From positions 2,652,001-2,716,000 of the forward strand of contig NC_013960.1 of the NCBI RefSeq assembly GCF_000024725.1: a DNA stretch of 64,000 bases, read 5' to 3'. Below are positions 4,381 through 14,300 of the stretch, one piece after another (positions within the stretch are counted from its first letter, which is position 1; every line of letters starts with the position of its first letter). Below the pieces are notes generated by a model, which worked only from the letters and a program-made list of their open reading frames with translations, ran no database searches and was not told the origin of the DNA. Position numbers and translations under genes: made by a program. This DNA is from Nitrosococcus halophilus Nc 4. GTDB lineage: Bacteria > Pseudomonadota > Gammaproteobacteria > Nitrosococcales > Nitrosococcaceae.

Positions 4381-5231
4381 CTAGGCCACGGCCCTTGGGG
4401 TCTTCACCGCTCCACGCGCTTTATCGGTTCCGGCGCTCCCCGCCGCACCCAACCTCAACACATTTTTGGCCGCGTTGATATCCCTATCGTGTTCCGTTCC
4501 ACAGTCCGGGCATTCCCATTCACGGATCTTGAGCGGCATCAACTCTTGAATAGTCCCGCACTCAGAAAGCGAGGCTGCGCCATTTTCAATTGCCGTGCGT
4601 ACTGGTAAGTGTATTTAGGCGCGCCGGACTTATCCCCGCTAGAGGTCACCACCACATCCTTGACGCCCACATCCACCCCAATCGCATTCTTGCGGGTAGG
4701 CAGCGCCGTAATCTCCACCTCGCAGGCCATGCTGACGAAATAACGGCCAGCGGGGTCTTTACTCACTGTCACCATTTTAGGGATACCGCCCACATTCCGA
4801 GACCACTTGATCTTCAGTGCCCCAAGCTTGGGCAGTTTCAACCGTTGGTTTTCGGCGTTGAAGTTCTTCGCCACATGGCGTTGATCGAGTTGATAGCGTA
4901 CCGATTGAGTCTGATGACGCTTCTTAAATCGTGGGTATTTCGCTCGACCGGCAAAGAAATGCTTAAAGGCTGTATCTTGGTCTCGCAATTTCTAGGTATG
5001 GCAACCGGCGGTGGCTTCACTCAGCCAGGGGCACGCCGTCTTTTTAAGTACCGTCAATTGGCGACTGAGGCTTATCGTATTCAGCGACTCGCCATCCTCT
5101 TTATACGCCTTCGTTCGGGCCTCCAACGCCCAATTCCACACATAGCGAGCATGGCCAAATTCTATGGCCAATTGCCGCTTTTGCTGGGGCGTTGGGTAAA
5201 ACCTGAATTTGTAGGCCCGTTGCGTTACCAT
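4381..5231 (-). pseudogene. tnpB: TnpB (OrfB) RNA-guided nuclease-like protein, broken
   Basis: The start region (MVTQRAYKFRFYPTPQQ..., ATG 5231) is a classic TnpB N-terminus, continuing through RYVWNWALEA, an in-frame TAG at 4994-4992, then LRDQDTAFKHFFAGRAKYPRF and the first RuvC block IGVDVGVKDVVVTSSG. After YARQLKMAQPRF the frame breaks, and the reading resumes in another frame with IREWECPDCGTEHDRDINAA, the C-terminal zinc finger and last RuvC Asp. About 100 residues between these blocks, including the catalytic Glu block, are missing. So there is one nonsense codon, one internal deletion and a frameshift: the gene cannot make active TnpB. Intact family members are about 370-420 residues. 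Confidence 0.88.
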
Positions 5232-5265
5232 ATCCCAATCGTAATACAACAGGGCTTTAATAACA

Positions 5266-5424
5266 ATGGCAAGGGAATATTTAAATGTACGGGTTGATGC
5301 CGATCTCAAAAAGCAACTTCAAAAGTTGGCTAAGAGGGAAAACCGAACGCTATCAAACTTGGTTGAAACCGTGCTGGGCAACTACGCGAAACGCGAATTC
5401 ATGGCGAAACGCAAGTCATCCTGA
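5266..5424 (+). CDS. Small ribbon-helix-helix protein next to tnpB
   Basis: A 52-codon gene starting ATG 5266, protein MAREYLNVRVDADLKKQLQK..., with the pattern of a ribbon-helix-helix DNA-binding protein: a short beta strand (YLNVRVDADL), then helices containing LAKRENRTLSNLVETVLGNY. RHH proteins dimerise and usually repress nearby promoters. It is divergent from the tnpB remnant with only 34 bases between starts, so a shared control region is likely. Small RHH genes in this position accompany many IS605-type elements. Unlike tnpB it looks intact. A function beyond DNA binding cannot be read from the sequence. Confidence 0.7.
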   Translation: MAREYLNVRVDADLKKQLQKLAKRENRTLSNLVETVLGNYAKREFMAKRKSS

Positions 5425-7177: not shown

Positions 7178-7239
7178 ATAATTTTTTATCAAAATTGCGT
7201 TATTTGGCATAATTTTTTATCAAAATTGCGTTATTTGGC
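7178..7239. repeat. Two perfect 31-bp tandem copies (AT-rich)
   Basis: The unit 7178-7208 (starting ATAATTTTTTATC, ending GTTATTTGGC) is repeated base for base at 7209-7239. It is followed by a degenerate partial copy (TAATTTTTGGC) to about 7251. The exactness suggests a recent duplication or a spaced protein-binding array upstream of the copper/redox cluster. Confidence 0.9.
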
Positions 7240-7434: not shown

Positions 7435-8169
7435 TTGATAAAAAAAATAACCTTATTTTTTCTGCTTTTTGCTGTATATAGCATCAGTTCCCTGGTGTTT
7501 GCCCATACTGTCATTAAAGATCAAGCTAACGAAGGAACCACTCTGTTTACGGGGTTTTCCATCGGCCATGGTTGTGGTTTTGAGGATAAAGACAGTCTTC
7601 CAGTCATCTCTCAGTCGGTGGTTTTCCCCAATGGACCTAATGCCATTGTCACCCGTTTGGATACCGAGGAAGCCATTAGCTTAGGGGAGGTGCTCATTGG
7701 CGGCGCCCATTCAAACGGTCTGATTAACCCCAAGGCGATTCAAAACCGGGATATTTTCAATATGATCGAACAGTTCACCGATGAGACGGGGGTGGTGAGA
7801 GGCATTCATTATACTGACGGTGAGTTGCAGGCTGATTTGGCAGGTGTTATCCCTTTTCGCGTTTCAGGAGTCACCTTTGTGGAAGAGTCCTGTGCGACCA
7901 AGGTAAGGGCACGTATTGGGATAGCCAATTGGTGCCACGAAAGGGAAGGCGCACGCCGGGTGGATGCATGGATAGGGAAACTGACCCCGGTATTCAATGA
8001 CGAGCGAGTGGTTTCTGTAGGCTTTTGGCCCACTTTGACCATTAACCGGGATTTAGCGGCTAATCCTCTTCCCGAAAGTTGCGATGAGGGTTATGAGGTA
8101 GCGGTGGAACCCTCGGCGGAGGGAATTGATGAGTATCTGCCCGTGTCGGGGTTTATTCCCGGACTCTAG
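7435..8169 (+). CDS. Secreted YcnI-like (DUF1775-like) protein, predicted N-terminal His copper site
   Basis: A 244-residue exported protein starting at TTG 7435 behind a strong GAGGAGG site. The signal peptide (KKITLFFLLFAVYSISSLVFA) should be cut at VFA/H, leaving His24 as the first mature residue, followed by TVIKDQANEGTTLFTGFSIG and HGCG. This resembles YcnI/DUF1775 domains, where the mature N-terminal His with a Glu and a Trp binds copper (the mono-histidine brace). Conserved-looking Cys (HGCGF, EESCATK, NWCHE, ESCDEG) could form disulfides. No C-terminal membrane anchor is visible, unlike many YcnI proteins. It heads a run of envelope genes to 14300. Similarity was judged by eye, so the family call is moderate. 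Confidence 0.6.
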   Translation: MIKKITLFFLLFAVYSISSLVFAHTVIKDQANEGTTLFTGFSIGHGCGFEDKDSLPVISQSVVFPNGPNAIVTRLDTEEAISLGEVLIGGAHSNGLINPKAIQNRDIFNMIEQFTDETGVVRGIHYTDGELQADLAGVIPFRVSGVTFVEESCATKVRARIGIANWCHEREGARRVDAWIGKLTPVFNDERVVSVGFWPTLTINRDLAANPLPESCDEGYEVAVEPSAEGIDEYLPVSGFIPGL

Positions 8170-8295
8170 GTAGGGGGTTTGTAAAGGGTAAGATTCGCGA
8201 GGCGCATAGTGCCTCGCGCTTGCTTAACAGTGGGCTCTTGAGATGCCTGAGCCAAAATTATTTTTTCTGGACTTCTCTAATATTCGGGGGTCGAG

Positions 8296-9192
8296 ATGTC
8301 TGCGGGTAAATTTTTATTATTAATCCCACTTTCTTTTATCCACTCATTTGTCTTTGCAGGCGAGACTTTTCATGATCAGAGTCAAAAACTTGAATCCCTC
8401 TCCATGAACAACGGCGGCTTGCATTTAGAAGTGGAGCAAGCACCGCTAGAGCAAATATTTAAAATCATTGAAAATGAAACCGGCATCCGCTTACATGCCT
8501 CTCCTATGCCCCAGAAACGGGTGACGGCAACTTGCGCAGGGGCAACTCTGGAGGTGCTAAAATGCGTCCTAGGCAAAGAAGCCAGTCTTATTTATCGGTA
8601 TGGGGATAAGTCATCTACAAGTAGCCCAACGCCCCTGCTTCAAGAAGTGTGGGTACTGAGTTCAAATCCAAGTGGGCATCGGTTGCCCCAGGAGACTGAG
8701 CAGCAAATTATTTGCGATACCACAAAAAATTTGAATAATCCCATTCAGCATGAGCAGCAGTCGGTGTCTGGGGAAGGGCAAACGGCCCTATCAAGTTTGA
8801 AGCAGAATGAAATGGAAAAGCTTGTGGCACTGGCCCAATCACCCAATTCCGGACAACGGGAGGAAGCCTTGTCCCGTCTTGCGCTGCTAGATGAGGCTGA
8901 TGATGAAAGTATCAGAAATATTTTGACGGAGGCTTTAGGAGATCGAAACCCAAGCGTCAGGGCGCAGGCTGTGTCCGGGCTTGCCCGGCGCAATGATCCT
9001 GAAAGGGACGATGTGTTACAAGAAGCTTTGCATGACAGTGATGTGGGGGTACGATTGATGGCGGTTAGCAATGCAGGAGAGAATGTGGCTTTACTTGAAA
9101 CGGCGCTCCATGATACGGATAAGGTAGTGCGAGATTTAGCTAGCATGAAGCTTGAGCAAATCTTGCAAACGAATCCACGCCAATACGAGTAG
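8296..9192 (+). CDS. Periplasmic HEAT-repeat protein with STN-like N-terminal domain
   Basis: A 298-residue exported protein. The signal peptide is about residues 1-21 (LLLIPLSFIHSFVFAGE). Residues 40-92 (LHLEVEQAPLEQIFKIIENE then a beta-rich stretch ending LEVLKCVLG) look like the secretin/TonB short N-terminal (STN-like) domain. A polar linker (about 110-170) leads to HEAT-type alpha repeats (about 175-290), e.g. LTEALGDRNPSVRAQAVSGL and LQEALHDSDVGVRLMAV. HEAT repeats bind other proteins, so this is probably a scaffold in the envelope. It sits 126 bases behind the YcnI-like gene and 21 bases before the next secreted protein. Specific role unknown. Confidence 0.65.
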   Translation: MSAGKFLLLIPLSFIHSFVFAGETFHDQSQKLESLSMNNGGLHLEVEQAPLEQIFKIIENETGIRLHASPMPQKRVTATCAGATLEVLKCVLGKEASLIYRYGDKSSTSSPTPLLQEVWVLSSNPSGHRLPQETEQQIICDTTKNLNNPIQHEQQSVSGEGQTALSSLKQNEMEKLVALAQSPNSGQREEALSRLALLDEADDESIRNILTEALGDRNPSVRAQAVSGLARRNDPERDDVLQEALHDSDVGVRLMAVSNAGENVALLETALHDTDKVVRDLASMKLEQILQTNPRQYE

Positions 9193-9213
9193 CATGATGA
9201 GAGGAAAGAATTT

Positions 9214-9681
9214 ATGAAAAATGCAACTTTAAAAAATAAGTGGGTCATCGCATCCATGGTGGCTGCATTGGGATATTCTGTTAATGGGGCCGCCCATGAT
9301 CAAGTCGGCGCCTTGGGCAATGAGGCTAGCGCTACCGATCACTACTTAATTATTTGCTCTACTGAGGCAGGTGAGGCCTCTGACGTGCTTGAGGTTCGAG
9401 TGTTTGATGCTACCGAAGCCCAGGGCGGGGGTAAAATAAGCGCAGTAGTCCAGAGGGAAACAGTGGTTAGAACTGCCTCGGACCCTTTTAGAGTGGATAA
9501 GGATTTTAACCACGATAAGAATTTTGGTCCCCTGACCTCTGTCTCTGGAGGAAACGGAGCTTATAATGTCATGGTGCATAAACTTAAAACTAGCCCTAAA
9601 AGTTATTTGCTTGAATACCACTGTAAAACAAATTCTGGCATCCACACGGGGACGTCATTGACGGTCTTACAAGACCAGTAA
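9214..9681 (+). CDS. Secreted protein of unknown function
   Basis: I do not recognise this 155-residue protein. It has a clear signal peptide (KNKWVIASMVAALGYSVNG), likely cut at GAA/H, so the mature form may start His-Asp-Gln. The mature part is beta-rich (ASDVLEVRVFDATEAQGGG, ISAVVQRETVVRT) with two Cys, in LIICSTE and LEYHCKTNSG, which probably form a disulfide. There is no membrane anchor and no lipobox. Its start lies 21 bases behind the HEAT-repeat gene, so the two are probably co-transcribed. A second predicted N-terminal His in the same cluster is suggestive of metal binding but not evidence of it. Confidence 0.6.
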   Translation: MKNATLKNKWVIASMVAALGYSVNGAAHDQVGALGNEASATDHYLIICSTEAGEASDVLEVRVFDATEAQGGGKISAVVQRETVVRTASDPFRVDKDFNHDKNFGPLTSVSGGNGAYNVMVHKLKTSPKSYLLEYHCKTNSGIHTGTSLTVLQDQ

Positions 9682-9816
9682 TAATGGCTTGTTGTGTGTC
9701 TATTGTTGTTTAAAAGGATTTCAGTGAGCTTTCTTCTTGAGAGGGAGCAAGCTCAAGGGGCTGTCCTAAAAATTGGAGTTTTAACACCATAACGCCTCAT
9801 TATTAAGAACCTAAGC

Positions 9817-10332
9817 ATGAATAAACTAAGACCGGCTCTTTTTTATTTCCTACTGGTTGCTATTCCGCTGCAAACGCTTGCCGCTTCTGAAATCAAACGG
9901 GAGGCACCCAACTGTATGCTGAATACTTTCGGTACAGCGGAACAGGTCACTATTGAGCAATGGCAAGGAAAAGTTATTTATGTGGATTTTTGGGCTTCTT
10001 GGTGTCCCCCATGTGTAAAATCATTTCCATTCCTAAATAACCTACATCGGCGTTTTGGTGATCAGGGATTGCAGATCCTAGGGATTAACCTGGATGAGAA
10101 ATTAAGTGATGCCCAGAAATTTTTAGCGAAATTTCCTACCCGTTTTGATATCGTGACTGATCCCGATCAGCAGTGTGCCCGATCATTCGATGTTCAAGCC
10201 ATGCCGTCTTCTTTTCTGGTTGATCGAAACGGAATGATCCGTTATGTCCACTTGGGGTTCCGATCTGGAGATGTTGAAGAACTGCGGGTACAGGTCCAAA
10301 AGATTTTAAAAGAAAAAGCGGCTAACCCTTAA
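9817..10332 (+). CDS. TlpA/ResA-like periplasmic thioredoxin
   Basis: A 171-residue exported thioredoxin-fold protein. The signal peptide is about residues 1-22 (MNKLRPALFYFLLVAIPLQT), followed by the redox motif WASWCPPCVKSFPF and the cis-proline region AMPSSFLVDRNGMIRYVHLG. TlpA-like proteins keep cysteines reduced or deliver electrons outside the cytoplasm, for example during cytochrome c or copper-centre (CuA) assembly. It lies 135 bases behind the unknown secreted protein and just before the DUF4266-DUF3570 pair. A thioredoxin of this kind often accompanies that pair, as I recall. The Cys-Pro-Pro-Cys centre is intact. Confidence 0.85.
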   Translation: MNKLRPALFYFLLVAIPLQTLAASEIKREAPNCMLNTFGTAEQVTIEQWQGKVIYVDFWASWCPPCVKSFPFLNNLHRRFGDQGLQILGINLDEKLSDAQKFLAKFPTRFDIVTDPDQQCARSFDVQAMPSSFLVDRNGMIRYVHLGFRSGDVEELRVQVQKILKEKAANP

Positions 10333-10397
10333 TTTTTTAGGGTTGTGTGCGGACTGCTTTTCCTGCCCCTTTCGATAATATTACTATATTGATAAAA

Positions 10398-10413
10398 GCG
10401 TTTTGCCAAACGC
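10398..10413. repeat. Short hairpin between tlpA-like and DUF4266 genes
   Basis: GCGTTT and AAACGC flank a TGCC loop, a perfect 6-bp stem in the 125-base gap. No strong T run follows on either strand, so it is more likely an mRNA hairpin or binding site than a complete terminator. Confidence 0.35.
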
Positions 10414-10457
10414 CAAAATTCATTTGATGGGTGCCGGACTTGAAGAGAAATACCGTA

Positions 10458-10706
10458 ATGATGAGAGGCAAGCGAATAACCAAGATAAAAAGAATAAAAA
10501 TAATAAGCGCGCTGCTATTATTTTTGACGGTAGGGCTGTCAGGTTGCGCCTCGGTGGCTCCCTGGGAACGGGGTAACCTGGCTAAGCCTCATATGGCGCT
10601 AGATCCCCATCCCATGCAGAGCGGTTTGCGTGCCCATGGCTACAATAGCCGCGAGGCGGCTGCCGGCAGTGGCTCTGCTGAAGGGGCGGGGTGTGGCTGC
10701 TATTAA
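10458..10706 (+). CDS. DUF4266 lipoprotein
   Basis: A small lipoprotein of about 82 residues. A basic n-region and the hydrophobic stretch IISALLLFLTVGLSGC end in a lipobox (LSGC). The mature part has the DUF4266 hallmarks: PWERGNLAKPHMALDPHPMQ, YNSREAAAGSGSAEG and a Cys-Gly-Cys close to the end (GAGCGCY). The frame is open from GTG 10431; I prefer ATG 10458, which gives a normal-length signal. It overlaps the start of the DUF3570 gene by about 70 bases, so translation is probably coupled. DUF4266 is regularly found beside DUF3570; its function is unknown. The terminal CGC could bind metal or form a thioether or disulfide, which is inference. Confidence 0.8.
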   Translation: MMRGKRITKIKRIKIISALLLFLTVGLSGCASVAPWERGNLAKPHMALDPHPMQSGLRAHGYNSREAAAGSGSAEGAGCGCY

Positions 10707-13251
10707 GCCGAAGTTTACCGCCAGACCTTCCAAGTGCCGAGCCAGCCCTTCGCTGTTGGCATTAACTTCTGCGGCACTGGCCTTGCCCGGTTTAATGTTG
10801 CCACCGGCCCATGCCGCCTTTGAGGGGGGGGAATTCAACTTCCAATACGGCCGTTATGAGGAGGGCGGCGGCACTCAAAGTCAATTTCGGAATAAAGACA
10901 ATGACATTCAGGTGGATAGTCTGGAAACCTCTGGGGAAATTGACCTCACTGACCGCTTGAGATTCCGTGCCAATTTTATTCAGGATACTTGGGTAGGGGC
11001 TACCCCCATCACCACGGCGCCAGCCGCTGCTGTCCGATTTAACCCCAACGCCCAAACCGGGGCGTCACCTTTCTTTGATCTCAGGGGAGGGGTGGTTAAT
11101 TTTGACATCGACACGGGTCAGGGGTCAGCAACCATTCCGGGAACCTTTGAATCCGTGATTACTGCCGAAACTGTGCACGTGATGGCTGAGGCCTCGCCGG
11201 AAACCCGTAAGCAGGGAGATTTCAACCTCAGCTACGAATGGGATGAGGCGGCGCTAGACCTGGGAGGTGGTATTTCCTTGGAAGATGACTATGAATCCCG
11301 CTATTTCAGCCTGGGTGGGCGCTGGGATTTCAACCAGAAGCTTACCACCTTGACGGGGGGAGTCGGTTATATTAACAGCACCATCGATGCCCTGCGTTTT
11401 CCATTTCGAGTAACGTCGGTTCCAGTCGATCCCGAGGGTGAAGTCAACCCAGATTTTCCAGATTGGTCGGTGAGGGTTAATGACCGGCGAACGGATACTT
11501 CGGTCAATCTTGGCCTCACCCAGGTTTTGGATAAAAACTCAGTATTCAAGGCAGGCTTTGGTTATACCCATAGCTCGGGTTTTCTCTCAAATGTTTATAA
11601 GGAATCCGTGTTTTTCGTGCCCTTGGAGACCCCAGGAATGTCGTGGCTTTTTACCCGCTACGATAAACGCCCTGAAGAGCGGGAGCAATTTAACTGGAAC
11701 ATAGGCTATTCCCGTTATCTTGCTGGGTTGGATGCCGCTTTGCATTTTAATTACAATTTTTTTCATGATGATTGGGGGATTAACGCCCATACTTTTGACG
11801 TGTCCTGGGGCCAACCTATAGGCGGAGGTTGGACCATCACCCCGACAGTCAGGTATTACAGTCAAAGCGCCGCGGACTTTTACAGTCCGTTTTTTATAGT
11901 CGATCAGGGGCCGTTTTCGGTAGGAGAGATCTTGGCCAATCAAAGCCAATTGCCCACTCCCGACCATTTTTCCAGTGACCATCGGCTATCCGCTTTTGGG
12001 GCCCTAAGCGGTGGAGTGACCTTGAGTAAGCAATTCGCCAAAGGGGTCACCCTGGAGGCGGGTTTTGAATATTATACCCACGCAGGCTCCTTAAAGCTGG
12101 GGGGGGGAGGGACCGGCGATTTTGCCGATTTCAACTATTTCCTGGCCAATGCGCTGCTGAAGGTGGATCTCTCGGCCCTTAGCCATTCTGGCGGCGGTTA
12201 TGGGGAACATGAACACCCGAGCGGTCACGCTGAGCACAGTGATTATGCCCCGGCAGGGGTAATGTTTGACCATATGCTAAAGATACCCGGCCATTTCATG
12301 GTGGGCTACCGGTATCGGTATAGCCGCCACGGTGGCGACACGCTCCATGGCGCCCAAGCCGTCAATGATCTTGCCATCGTCAATAACGCCTGCGGGGACA
12401 ATCCCTGCCAGGTGACGTCGGAGCATATGAACATGCATATGCATATGCTCGATCTCATGTATGCGCCGACAGATTGGTTGAATGTGATGCTGATGCCCAT
12501 GTTCATGGATATGGACATGGGCTTGCGGGAGCTTGAGGGGGCGCCCCCTCCGGATCCGGATGCGGTTGGCGGGCACAGCCATGCCATCGAGGGGGGCGGC
12601 CATGCCACTGGTGGGTTGGGTGATACGAGGCTGTTTGCGCTAGTTAAATTATTGGATTCTCCCCGGCACCACTTGCACCTGGGCTTAGGCATCAGCGCCC
12701 CGACCGGTGATGTGGATATTAAAGTCGAGGGTATGGAAATTAACGAGAATAGCCCGGATTTTGGCAAACCCTTATTTCTTCACTATGGAATGCAGCTTGG
12801 CAGCGGTACCTGGGATTTTTTGCCTAACCTGACCTACACGGGTGGGTTAGAGCGCTGGTCTTGGGGCGGCCAACTGAGCGGCACCCTGCGCTTGGAAAGC
12901 GAAAACTCCTCCGGTTTCTCTTTTGGCGATATATTTCAGGCCACGGCCTGGGGCGGTTATAGCCTGTTCAATTGGCTCTCTGCTTCGGTCCGAGGCATCT
13001 ATACGATACAAGGTGGGATTAACGGTCAATTCAACGGACCGACCCCGAACTCGGCGCCGGTGGATTTCCCGGACAATTACGGCGGACGCTTCTGGGATGT
13101 GGGTTTTGGCCTCAATGCCTCTACTTTAGGGGGGGGGCTTAAGGGGAATCGATTGAGCTTCGAGTGGATACAACCGGTGAGGGATGATGTCAACGGCTTT
13201 CAACTGGAACGGGAGGGCACACTTTTTGTCACTTGGGATTTGGCGTTCTAA
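10630..13251 (+). CDS. DUF3570 outer-membrane barrel protein fused to a Met/His-rich barrel-like domain
   Basis: An exceptionally long 873-residue protein. The leader (about residues 1-62) ends LALPGLMLPPAHA. Residues 65-520 are DUF3570: many alternating beta strands with aromatic girdles (YGRYEEGGG, FSLGGRWDF, VGYINSTID, FGYTHSSG), predicted to form an outer-membrane barrel. A His-rich link (GEHEHPSGHAEHSDY, about 524-540) leads to a second beta-rich part (540-873) holding MNMHMHM and MLMPMFMDMDMG (about 597-632), a further His run, and a barrel-type C-terminus ending in Phe (TWDLAF). DUF3570 proteins are usually far shorter, so this is probably a fusion of two barrels. The Met/His segments suggest Cu(I)/Cu(II) binding (inference). 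The start could be GTG 10630 or ATG 10636, both inside the DUF4266 gene. Confidence 0.75.
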   Translation: MPMATIAARRLPAVALLKGRGVAAIKPKFTARPSKCRASPSLLALTSAALALPGLMLPPAHAAFEGGEFNFQYGRYEEGGGTQSQFRNKDNDIQVDSLETSGEIDLTDRLRFRANFIQDTWVGATPITTAPAAAVRFNPNAQTGASPFFDLRGGVVNFDIDTGQGSATIPGTFESVITAETVHVMAEASPETRKQGDFNLSYEWDEAALDLGGGISLEDDYESRYFSLGGRWDFNQKLTTLTGGVGYINSTIDALRFPFRVTSVPVDPEGEVNPDFPDWSVRVNDRRTDTSVNLGLTQVLDKNSVFKAGFGYTHSSGFLSNVYKESVFFVPLETPGMSWLFTRYDKRPEEREQFNWNIGYSRYLAGLDAALHFNYNFFHDDWGINAHTFDVSWGQPIGGGWTITPTVRYYSQSAADFYSPFFIVDQGPFSVGEILANQSQLPTPDHFSSDHRLSAFGALSGGVTLSKQFAKGVTLEAGFEYYTHAGSLKLGGGGTGDFADFNYFLANALLKVDLSALSHSGGGYGEHEHPSGHAEHSDYAPAGVMFDHMLKIPGHFMVGYRYRYSRHGGDTLHGAQAVNDLAIVNNACGDNPCQVTSEHMNMHMHMLDLMYAPTDWLNVMLMPMFMDMDMGLRELEGAPPPDPDAVGGHSHAIEGGGHATGGLGDTRLFALVKLLDSPRHHLHLGLGISAPTGDVDIKVEGMEINENSPDFGKPLFLHYGMQLGSGTWDFLPNLTYTGGLERWSWGGQLSGTLRLESENSSGFSFGDIFQATAWGGYSLFNWLSASVRGIYTIQGGINGQFNGPTPNSAPVDFPDNYGGRFWDVGFGLNASTLGGGLKGNRLSFEWIQPVRDDVNGFQLEREGTLFVTWDLAF

Positions 13252-13331
13252 TCAACAACGGAGTGAGCAGAGGGGTATTTTCTCTCTGAGGTTCGGACTC
13301 CAGTTCTGGCGGCTGATTTTTTGGGGGTAGA

Positions 13332-14300
13332 GTGCAGCTTTACCGCGATGCTTTCCATGCCATGGGCACACCCTGCGAGATCCAACTCTATGCCCAAACC
13401 CAGGCTAAAGCCCAACGAGCGGCGGAACTCATCATCGCCGATGTACGCCGACTGGAAGCACTGTATTCCCGCTACCGTGCTGATAGTTTTCTTTCTGAGA
13501 TCAATCGGGTGGCGATGGCTGGGGGGCGTATTTCGGTAGATGAGGAAACAGCAGGATTGCTCAATTATGCGGCCACTTGCTATGAGCAGAGCGAAGGATT
13601 GTTTGACATTACTTCCGGCATCTTGCGGCGCGCTTGGAACTTTAAATCAGGCAAATTGCCGAGTAAAACGCAAGTGCAAGAGCTGCTTAGCAAAATTGGC
13701 TGGAGTAAGCTGCGCTGGGCGCCGCCGGTATTGGAATTTCCCTTACCCGGAATGGAAATTGATTTTGGCGGTATCGTCAAGGAATATGCCGCTGACCGCA
13801 CAGCCTCGCTGAGTTTGCAAGCGGGGGTTCGGCATGGTCTAGTGAATTTAGGCGGCGATATTAAAATTATTGGTCCCCGCCCCGATGGCGAACCTTGGCG
13901 GATTGGCATCCGTCACCCAAATCATCAAGGCGCAGCAACCCGAATGCTCCTGCTGCAGGAAGGGGCTATTGCCAGTAGCGGTGATTATGAGCGTTGCATC
14001 GTATTAAACGGCGTCCGTTACGGCCATGTTCTTAACCCTAAGACGGGTTGGCCAGTGCGGCATTTGGCATCGGTGACCGTGGTCAGTGATTTGTGCGTGG
14101 TGGCGGGGAGTGCCTCTACCATCACCATGTTGAAAGAAACTGATGGCCCGGCCTGGTTGCGAAATTTGGGTTTACCTCATTTCTGGGTAGATATCCAGGG
14201 TGAAACTGGTGGTTCGCTAGAGGAATTGTCCACTGAGACCGCTGCTTCGATTGGGAATGGCAAACAGCAAGCGGCAATCATGGTACTTGATGAACATTGA
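13332..14300 (+). CDS. apbE: ApbE-like FAD:protein FMN transferase (atypical)
   Basis: A 322-residue ApbE-family protein. Typical blocks are AMGTPCEIQLYA, FDITSG, DFGGIVKEYAADRTA (with the Lys), VNLGGDI, WRIGIRHPN, SSGDYER and YGHVLNPKTGWPV (with the His). ApbE attaches FMN covalently to a Thr of target proteins, normally outside the cytoplasm. Two oddities: no signal peptide or lipobox is encoded from the GTG start (GGGGG site at 13323-13327, and a TGA lies in frame six codons upstream), and the usual metal-binding Asp block ADAL(A/S)T reads AGSAST, so the Asp is replaced by Gly. It closes the secreted DUF cluster and overlaps the next gene by 11 bases. No FMN-bind target domain is seen in the window. 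Confidence 0.82.
   Translation: MQLYRDAFHAMGTPCEIQLYAQTQAKAQRAAELIIADVRRLEALYSRYRADSFLSEINRVAMAGGRISVDEETAGLLNYAATCYEQSEGLFDITSGILRRAWNFKSGKLPSKTQVQELLSKIGWSKLRWAPPVLEFPLPGMEIDFGGIVKEYAADRTASLSLQAGVRHGLVNLGGDIKIIGPRPDGEPWRIGIRHPNHQGAATRMLLLQEGAIASSGDYERCIVLNGVRYGHVLNPKTGWPVRHLASVTVVSDLCVVAGSASTITMLKETDGPAWLRNLGLPHFWVDIQGETGGSLEELSTETAASIGNGKQQAAIMVLDEH

Follow-up and report, generated by a model that had tools for sequence, protein, structure and literature searches.

A conserved outer-membrane and periplasmic gene system of Nitrosococcus halophilus Nc 4 with a fused DUF3570 double barrel and a candidate role in copper handling

Here, we describe seven consecutive top-strand open reading frames (ORFs) of Nitrosococcus halophilus Nc 4, located at positions 7435-14300 of a 64,000-nucleotide stretch of its chromosome (NC_013960.1, positions 2,652,001 to 2,716,000), which we call the window and whose numbering is used throughout. 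Our best reading, which we consider probable, is that these genes form a conserved outer-membrane and periplasmic system that handles copper in one direction or the other. At its centre stands a DUF3570 protein fused to a second, methionine-rich barrel. We computed the anatomy of the locus, the predicted fold of its first gene, the two-barrel prediction, the methionine conservation, the co-occurrence of the genes and their restricted host range. A copper role is favoured by the fold, the methionine pattern, the host range, and some of the genes found beside stand-alone relatives of that barrel.

A preliminary description, made from the DNA letters, had proposed an envelope redox system of seven consecutive genes, six of them exported. 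All seven ORFs are there, a signal peptide or lipobox can be seen by eye on six of the proteins (the exception is ApbE), and an envelope redox system is supported. The core corresponds to a known flavinylation module. Among the window proteins, Pfam matches HEAT, Redoxin/AhpC-TSA, DUF4266, DUF3570 and ApbE; genes 1 and 3 have no Pfam match at E ≤ 1. When 63 genomes of this order are compared, gene 1, gene 3 and DUF3570 are each confined to the same six, which belong to one family, and the cluster is therefore not a chance grouping. The gene order is identical in the five relatives compared, whose rows were assigned to loci via coordinates and translations.

The fused gene lies at 10693-13251 (+ strand; PF12094, E = 4.6e-137). 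Its longest ORF is 10630-13251, and the GTG at 10693, which overlaps the DUF4266 stop, is by eye the likelier start. The DUF3570 barrel (about 10831-12171, + strand) is followed, through a linker in which 22% of the residues are His, by a Met-rich barrel resembling the COG4313 channel (about 12256-13248, + strand). The AlphaFold model, built with 45 sequences, has a pLDDT (predicted local distance difference test) of 73.0 and a pTM (predicted template modelling score) of 0.54; confidence is good for most strands but poor for the linker and several long loops, and the placement of the barrels relative to each other is uncertain. In VIA comparisons, residues 503-833 align with the COG4313 channel (4rl8) at Z 23.3, with a root-mean-square deviation (rmsd) of 2.8 over 254 residues, and residues about 14-474 align with FhaC at Z 17.4, several porins following in separate rows at Z about 15-16. 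The model thus predicts two tandem outer-membrane barrels. The Met/His-rich barrel of the preliminary description corresponds to this additional domain, joined to DUF3570 in one protein.

Relatives of the fused extension were sought with two Met-rich peptide patterns in a collection described as holding a single genome per species for 84,980 species. At least 592 stretches fitted the patterns and at least 235 relatives could be confirmed, of which the 80 best were retained. All of these 80 homologues end in Phe, a usual ending of outer-membrane proteins. The COG4313 channel is, we assume, linked to the Pfam family Phenol_MetA_deg (PF13557), which matches none of seven fused members; the window sequence has no Pfam match in its second barrel, and one stand-alone relative of that barrel scores 21.8 against the family's cut-off of 22. 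While the second barrel aligns with 4rl8, it differs from that channel in carrying a methionine ladder and in sitting fused behind DUF3570.

The ladder (12427-12519, + strand) comprises M560, M562, M564, M566 and M570 on one strand and M580, M582, M588 and M590 on its neighbour, together with H565. These nine methionines and the histidine are invariant in 45 of 45 alignment rows, a figure partly selected by the Met-rich patterns of the scan. A count on sequences found by profile instead of by these patterns, taken from 40 of the 79 fused matches in Nitrosomonadaceae (the lower-scoring ones, three cut matches skipped, partly from the same organisms), finds each residue kept in 39 or 40 of 40 sequences. 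Met makes up 25% of residues 555-594, compared with 0.9% of the DUF3570 part. Because the methionines alternate, falling on the same face within each strand, and several opposite-face residues near the middle of the ladder strands are hydrophobic, the pattern suggests a Met-lined lumen in the second barrel. Thioether ladders suit Cu(I), not iron, and no iron transporter is encoded among the seven genes (the flanks of other loci were not annotated for this). Iron reduction and uptake, which has been suggested for some DUF3570 clusters with VIT1, a gene found in 25 published clusters (PMC8238504), is consequently the reading to which we give least credence.

Four of the seven genes make up the redox core. 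The TlpA/ResA-like periplasmic thioredoxin (9817-10332, + strand; PF08534, E = 2e-25) carries a WCPPC motif, and WCxxC is kept in all 76 of its homologues. The DUF4266 lipoprotein (10431-10706, + strand; PF14086, E = 2.7e-20) ends in GCGCY, with a CxC end in 78 of 78 homologues. The ApbE-type flavin mononucleotide (FMN) transferase (13332-14300, + strand; PF02424, E = 5.9e-75) has no evident signal peptide, and a hydrophobic stretch precedes its first motif in six of 58 frames from loci with the fused gene; at loci with DUF3570 of ordinary length, signal peptides of ApbE were judged by eye only. The conserved thiols would also fit a defence in which the Met-rich barrel and the thioredoxin absorb oxidants arising close to the monooxygenase and the flavin serves repair, since Met-rich surfaces together with a thioredoxin would suit methionine-sulfoxide cycling. 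Such a defence does not, however, predict the strict alternation of Met on two strands or a YcnI fold, there is no methionine sulfoxide reductase among the seven genes, and we rate it very improbable.

DUF3570 is flavinylated by ApbE at two [ST]GA[ST] motifs, as reported for a Chlorobium homologue, and ApbE, DUF3570, a thioredoxin and DUF4266 cluster together, their function being called uncertain, in the portion of the source available to us (Meheust et al., 2021; PMC8238504). The preliminary description, which knew of no described function for this group, had missed that work. The window shares with the published module the four core proteins, the CxC of DUF4266 and an [ST]GA[ST] motif, seen at one of the two sites. 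It differs in the fusion of DUF3570 to the Met-rich barrel, in three additional exported front genes, and in that the fused form occurs, among the best 80 loci, almost only in ammonia and methane oxidisers. Its thioredoxin matches Redoxin/AhpC-TSA, of the TlpA kind, rather than the PF13899 named there. DsbD, an optional feature, is absent from the seven genes, to which the search for it was confined; 316 published DUF3570 clusters likewise have none, according to the same portion of PMC8238504.

The first flavinylation position (10993-11004, + strand; alignment and motif list of 80 loci) is residue 82, on the third strand of the first barrel, and the second (11056-11067, + strand; alignment, with the motif as defined in PMC8238504) is residue 103, in a 49-residue loop behind that strand. 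Site 1 reads VGAT in the window and in three other same-genus sequences of the alignment, and SGAT in relatives; among the best 80 loci, 77 extended proteins have an ORF that includes this site, and 73 of them fit [ST]GA[ST] there. Inspection by eye finds a single [ST]GA[ST] in the DUF3570 domain of the window, the TGAS at site 2, and going by sequence site 1 has probably been lost here. The longest loops of the first barrel come after odd-numbered strands, and the loop with residue 103 would lie outside the cell if the N-terminus is periplasmic.

That loop, on the side of the long loops, would suit a different use of the barrel, namely an electron conduit from periplasmic thiols to extracellular Fe(III) or quinones in which copper is incidental. 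A conduit would be in keeping with the demonstrated modification of DUF3570 by ApbE and with the role of flavinylation in electron transfer outside the cytosol (PMC8238504). It would, however, leave the Met ladder, the YcnI fold and the host range unexplained, and DUF3570 of ordinary length comes without the front genes. The accessible part of a paper on electron export in Methylobacter names a decaheme cytochrome and neither ApbE nor FMN (PMC13322032). We judge the conduit to be quite unlikely.

Gene 1 (7435-8169, + strand) encodes an exported protein predicted to have the YcnI/DUF1775 fold. Its AlphaFold model (pLDDT 85.4) aligns with YcnI (8um6) in VIA at Z 12.0, with 124 residues aligned and an rmsd of 2.8; 7me6 (11.9), 7mek (11.5) and 3esm (11.1) come next, and the next unrelated row scores 7.4. 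Foldseek likewise puts 3esm first, at E = 1.0e-3, and 3ESM is closely related to YcnI (PMC8424229, available part). The YcnI-like label of the preliminary description is thus borne out by fold. Membership in DUF1775 by sequence was considered and ruled out, as that Pfam family matches none of 41 gene 1 members at E ≤ 1, and a profile search of the PDB finds no YcnI chain at E ≤ 10 (the best row is weak, E = 0.65).

The conserved residues of the family are His24 at the predicted mature N-terminus (AHT), the HGC motif (H45, C47), C153, C167, C216 and W179. H24 is invariant in 41 rows; the rows of both gene 1 and gene 3 were picked with an A[HQ] start, and this invariance is a matter of choice. 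In YcnI, His27, Glu50 and Trp137 form a mono-histidine brace in which His27 binds Cu(II), and the protein has been linked to copper acquisition in Bacillus (PMC8424229 and PMC12362106, in the parts available). The aligned range opens at gene 1 His24, opposite YcnI residue 27, in the three YcnI rows, and at model residue 22 in the 3esm row. Near the place of Glu50, the gene 1 family has no invariant Glu; H45 and C47 lie there, E33 is near-invariant and W179 is invariant. We propose that H45 takes the place of Glu50, which would give a two-His site, and that gene 1 is a putative periplasmic copper chaperone. It shares with YcnI (PMC8424229) the fold, export and a predicted mature N-terminal His at the copper-ligand end. 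Unlike YcnI, it goes unrecognised by Pfam, is longer, shows no C-terminal membrane helix, has no conserved Glu at the position of Glu50 but an HGC motif nearby, and sits in a flavin operon rather than with CopCD. Tandem duplicates of genes 1 and 3 are seen in related genera (L022:7845-9663, L018:9157-10219, L022:10663-11608), and up to seven gene 1 matches occur in some Nitrosomonadaceae genomes.

Two further exported proteins complete the front of the cluster. Gene 2 (8296-9192, + strand) matches HEAT repeats (PF13646, E = 7.4e-11, residues 174-257), in agreement with the preliminary description, which lacked the extra N-terminal domain ahead of the repeats. By eye we suspected a secretin/TonB short N-terminal (STN) domain there, which has no match in six members. 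Gene 3 (9214-9681, + strand) represents a new family; its members are small and exported and have no Pfam family in common, and the best row of its PDB profile search is weak (E = 0.16). C48 and C137, H136 and H144 are conserved, and most copies have a predicted mature N-terminal His28; some lack it, such as L101, L106 and the second copies in L076 and L118. Judged by sequence, gene 3 is a possible second copper carrier of a histidine-brace-like kind.

The extension is almost always part of the fusion: 79 of the best 80 loci have it joined to DUF3570, and the remaining one ends at a contig edge. Linkage was counted at the 52 loci whose flanks extend at least 5 kb upstream and at least 1.2 kb downstream, where gene 1 is found at 46, gene 2 at 24 (about half), gene 3 at 51, TlpA at 51, DUF4266 at all 52 and ApbE at 40. 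Whether the front genes travel with the core had been set as a check beforehand, and they do so with the extended, fused DUF3570. They do not do so with DUF3570 at large. In a phylum sample of 398 genomes, 29 have DUF3570, 13 of them with weaker matches; neighbourhoods were opened for the other 16, namely G000, G164 and 14 canonical loci, whose DUF3570 frames measure 407-492 amino acids. DUF4266 and ApbE are present at all 14 canonical loci and TlpA at 12, but none has gene 1, 2 or 3 (E ≤ 1) or a C-terminal extension (E ≤ 0.1), and the idea that DUF3570 clusters generally carry the front genes was dropped.

In the phylum sample, the fused form, judged by open-frame length as in Nitrosomonadaceae (there, at least 652 amino acids), occurs only in G000 and G164, in frames of 882 and 912 amino acids. 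G164 has two gene 1 copies, gene 3, TlpA, DUF4266, the fused gene and ApbE, has no gene 2, and carries three AmoA copies. Extension matches occur in 45 genomes of the sample, 43 of them in frames without DUF3570, mostly of 320-430 amino acids (range 232-665). Such stand-alone relatives were recovered in 16 of 18 stretches, and many of them keep the Met-rich stretch; nine of their neighbours were scanned with Pfam and others assessed by eye or blast cluster. PCuAC lies near L171 and L182 (Pfam) and L186 (blast cluster), SCO1/SenC near L183 (Pfam) and L186 (blast cluster), and a TlpA-like thioredoxin near L182 (Pfam) and L186 (blast cluster); a neighbour of L172 has a sub-threshold DUF2946 match.

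These copper neighbours, and the anatomy, would also fit copper export or detoxification, in which the Met barrel would release Cu(I) outward while the redox chain would keep the state of copper, or of thiols in the periplasm, tolerable; ammonia and methane oxidisers, moreover, carry much copper. No inner-membrane pump or CusB-kind adaptor is found among the seven genes, however, and the fold of gene 1 is that of YcnI, with its link to acquisition in Bacillus (PMC8424229; PMC12362106). We therefore regard export as unlikely.

The titles of the best 80 loci name Methylococcales-type bacteria, Nitrosomonas and other Nitrosomonadaceae, a few unclassified (gamma)proteobacterial metagenome-assembled genomes (MAGs) and one Methylotenera MAG. 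Among these best 80 of at least 235 relatives, on which the host range rests, the fused form is almost only found in ammonia and methane oxidisers. The window genome has an AmoA-family gene (PF02461) elsewhere on its chromosome, and ammonia monooxygenase (AMO) or PmoA is present in 34 of 49 host genomes, which represent 50 loci chosen from the best 80. Within 125 Nitrosomonadaceae genomes, the fused gene occurs in 73, all of genus g29, which contains G164 and which we take to be Nitrosomonas-like; G466 has a stand-alone relative of the extension. Gene 3 is present in 74 genomes and shares 72 with the 73 fused ones (G515 lacks it; G518 and G520 carry it with no extension match), and gene 1 is present in 79, namely the 73 plus G473, G492, G508, G513, G518 and G520. 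AMO is found in 67 of the 125, with the fused gene in 40 and without it in 27; its overlap, and that of gene 3, with the fused gene was counted by hand.

Several observations count against a copper-handling system built in this way. In the proteins themselves, the window has probably lost flavinylation site 1, the one kept by most relatives, and the absence of a signal peptide on ApbE is unexpected for a periplasmic substrate. At the loci, a neighbouring ApbE is missing from 12 of 52 and gene 2 from 28 of 52. Six Nitrosomonadaceae genomes carry gene 1 but not the fused gene, and two of them also have gene 3. Among stand-alone relatives, L177, L181 and L185 lack the Met pattern, copper neighbours are seen at only some, and the PCuAC and SCO cases come from few genomes. 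AMO is missing from 15 of the 49 host genomes and from 33 of the 73 fused Nitrosomonadaceae genomes, perhaps through draft gaps in both sets. The 27 AMO-bearing Nitrosomonadaceae without the fused gene comprise six of g29, all 16 AMO-positive members of g221 (presumably Nitrosospira-like, with three amo copies), three of g220 and two of g222. The DUF3570 genomes do not include G249, which has AMO/PmoA, lies outside the Gammaproteobacteria and holds two stand-alone barrel-2 relatives. The Methylotenera-labelled MAG (L146; G622, JABFSF010000044.1), one of the 15, shows no AMO, and its locus combines a 988-amino-acid fused gene with DUF4266, whereas genes 1, 2 and 3, TlpA and ApbE were not found there; this is either a binning error or a real transfer. 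A Nitrosomonas MAG titled as a chromosome (G631; L131, CP091134.1) has the fused gene and no AmoA match, possibly a gap. With 40 of 67 AMO-bearing Nitrosomonadaceae having it, the extended system cannot be universal in, or required by, bacteria with copper monooxygenases. It marks some lineages with AMO or particulate methane monooxygenase (pMMO), yet is not required for these enzymes.

Having weighed these points, we return to copper handling as the preferred reading. That the direction is inward, with a flavin driving the reduction of Cu(II) and the resulting Cu(I) imported to supply copper monooxygenases, seems to us an evenly balanced proposition. Its fullest form is a reductive copper importer of the outer membrane, in which a single polypeptide unites a flavinylated reductase barrel with a Met-ladder Cu(I) channel. 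Thiols of the periplasm would feed it, a YcnI-fold chaperone and a new N-terminal-His copper protein would take over its copper, and AMO and pMMO would be supplied; this we offer tentatively, as somewhat doubtful in its entirety. ApbE would attach FMN to the DUF3570 barrel, at TGAS in the window, and electrons would pass from the TlpA-like thioredoxin and the CxC dithiol of DUF4266 to the flavin. The flavin would then reduce Cu(II) to Cu(I) at or inside the outer membrane, and Cu(I) would cross the fused second barrel along its alternating, near-invariant methionines. In the periplasm, gene 1 and probably gene 3 would accept copper for AMO/pMMO and other cuproenzymes, and the HEAT gene product may, at a guess, be a scaffold.

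As we understand it, yeast offers an analogy in the Fre reductase and Ctr1, where a flavin reductase works together with a Cu(I) channel lined by methionines, although these are presumably alpha-helical plasma-membrane proteins with no homology to the barrels. PmoD/AmoD is also a copper-linked exported protein common to methane and ammonia oxidisers, but it is a different protein and is encoded in pmo/amo operons (PMC6189053, available part). We found no description of this cluster in the titles and abstract openings of papers on ApbE, flavinylation or copper uptake in methanotrophs or Nitrosomonas. MEALZ_0810/0811, methanotroph genes induced by copper limitation, could not be identified as cluster members from the available part of PMC11784148 and were not used.

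A fused major facilitator superfamily (MFS)/spermidine synthase gene (NF037959) recurs beside the extended system, for example at L022:16420-17982 and L057:3812-5362. It is present at 39 of the best 80 loci, and at 25 of the 44 with wide flanks, downstream in 12 of 13 methanotroph loci and upstream on the other strand in all 12 others. Of the five Nitrosococcaceae relatives, all but L020 have it behind ApbE (L018, L019, L021 and L022), and it has no match within the window. It may be an eighth member of the extended system, as its inner-membrane partner. In the window, a perfect 31-base tandem direct repeat in two copies lies in the AT-rich region 5' of gene 1 (7178-7239) and is a possible regulator site. 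A short minus-strand ORF further upstream (4992-5309) resembles what we take to be the broken end of an IS200/IS605-type transposase.

To our knowledge, little is established about how copper crosses the outer membrane in ammonia oxidisers and gammaproteobacterial methanotrophs beyond methanobactin and CorA/MopE. The double barrel and its chaperone-fold partner provide a concrete candidate for this passage, and an importer of the kind proposed would matter most for lineages that lack methanobactin. For one group of DUF3570 proteins, function also becomes testable, and the cluster contributes a divergent YcnI-fold family together with a new N-terminal-His family.

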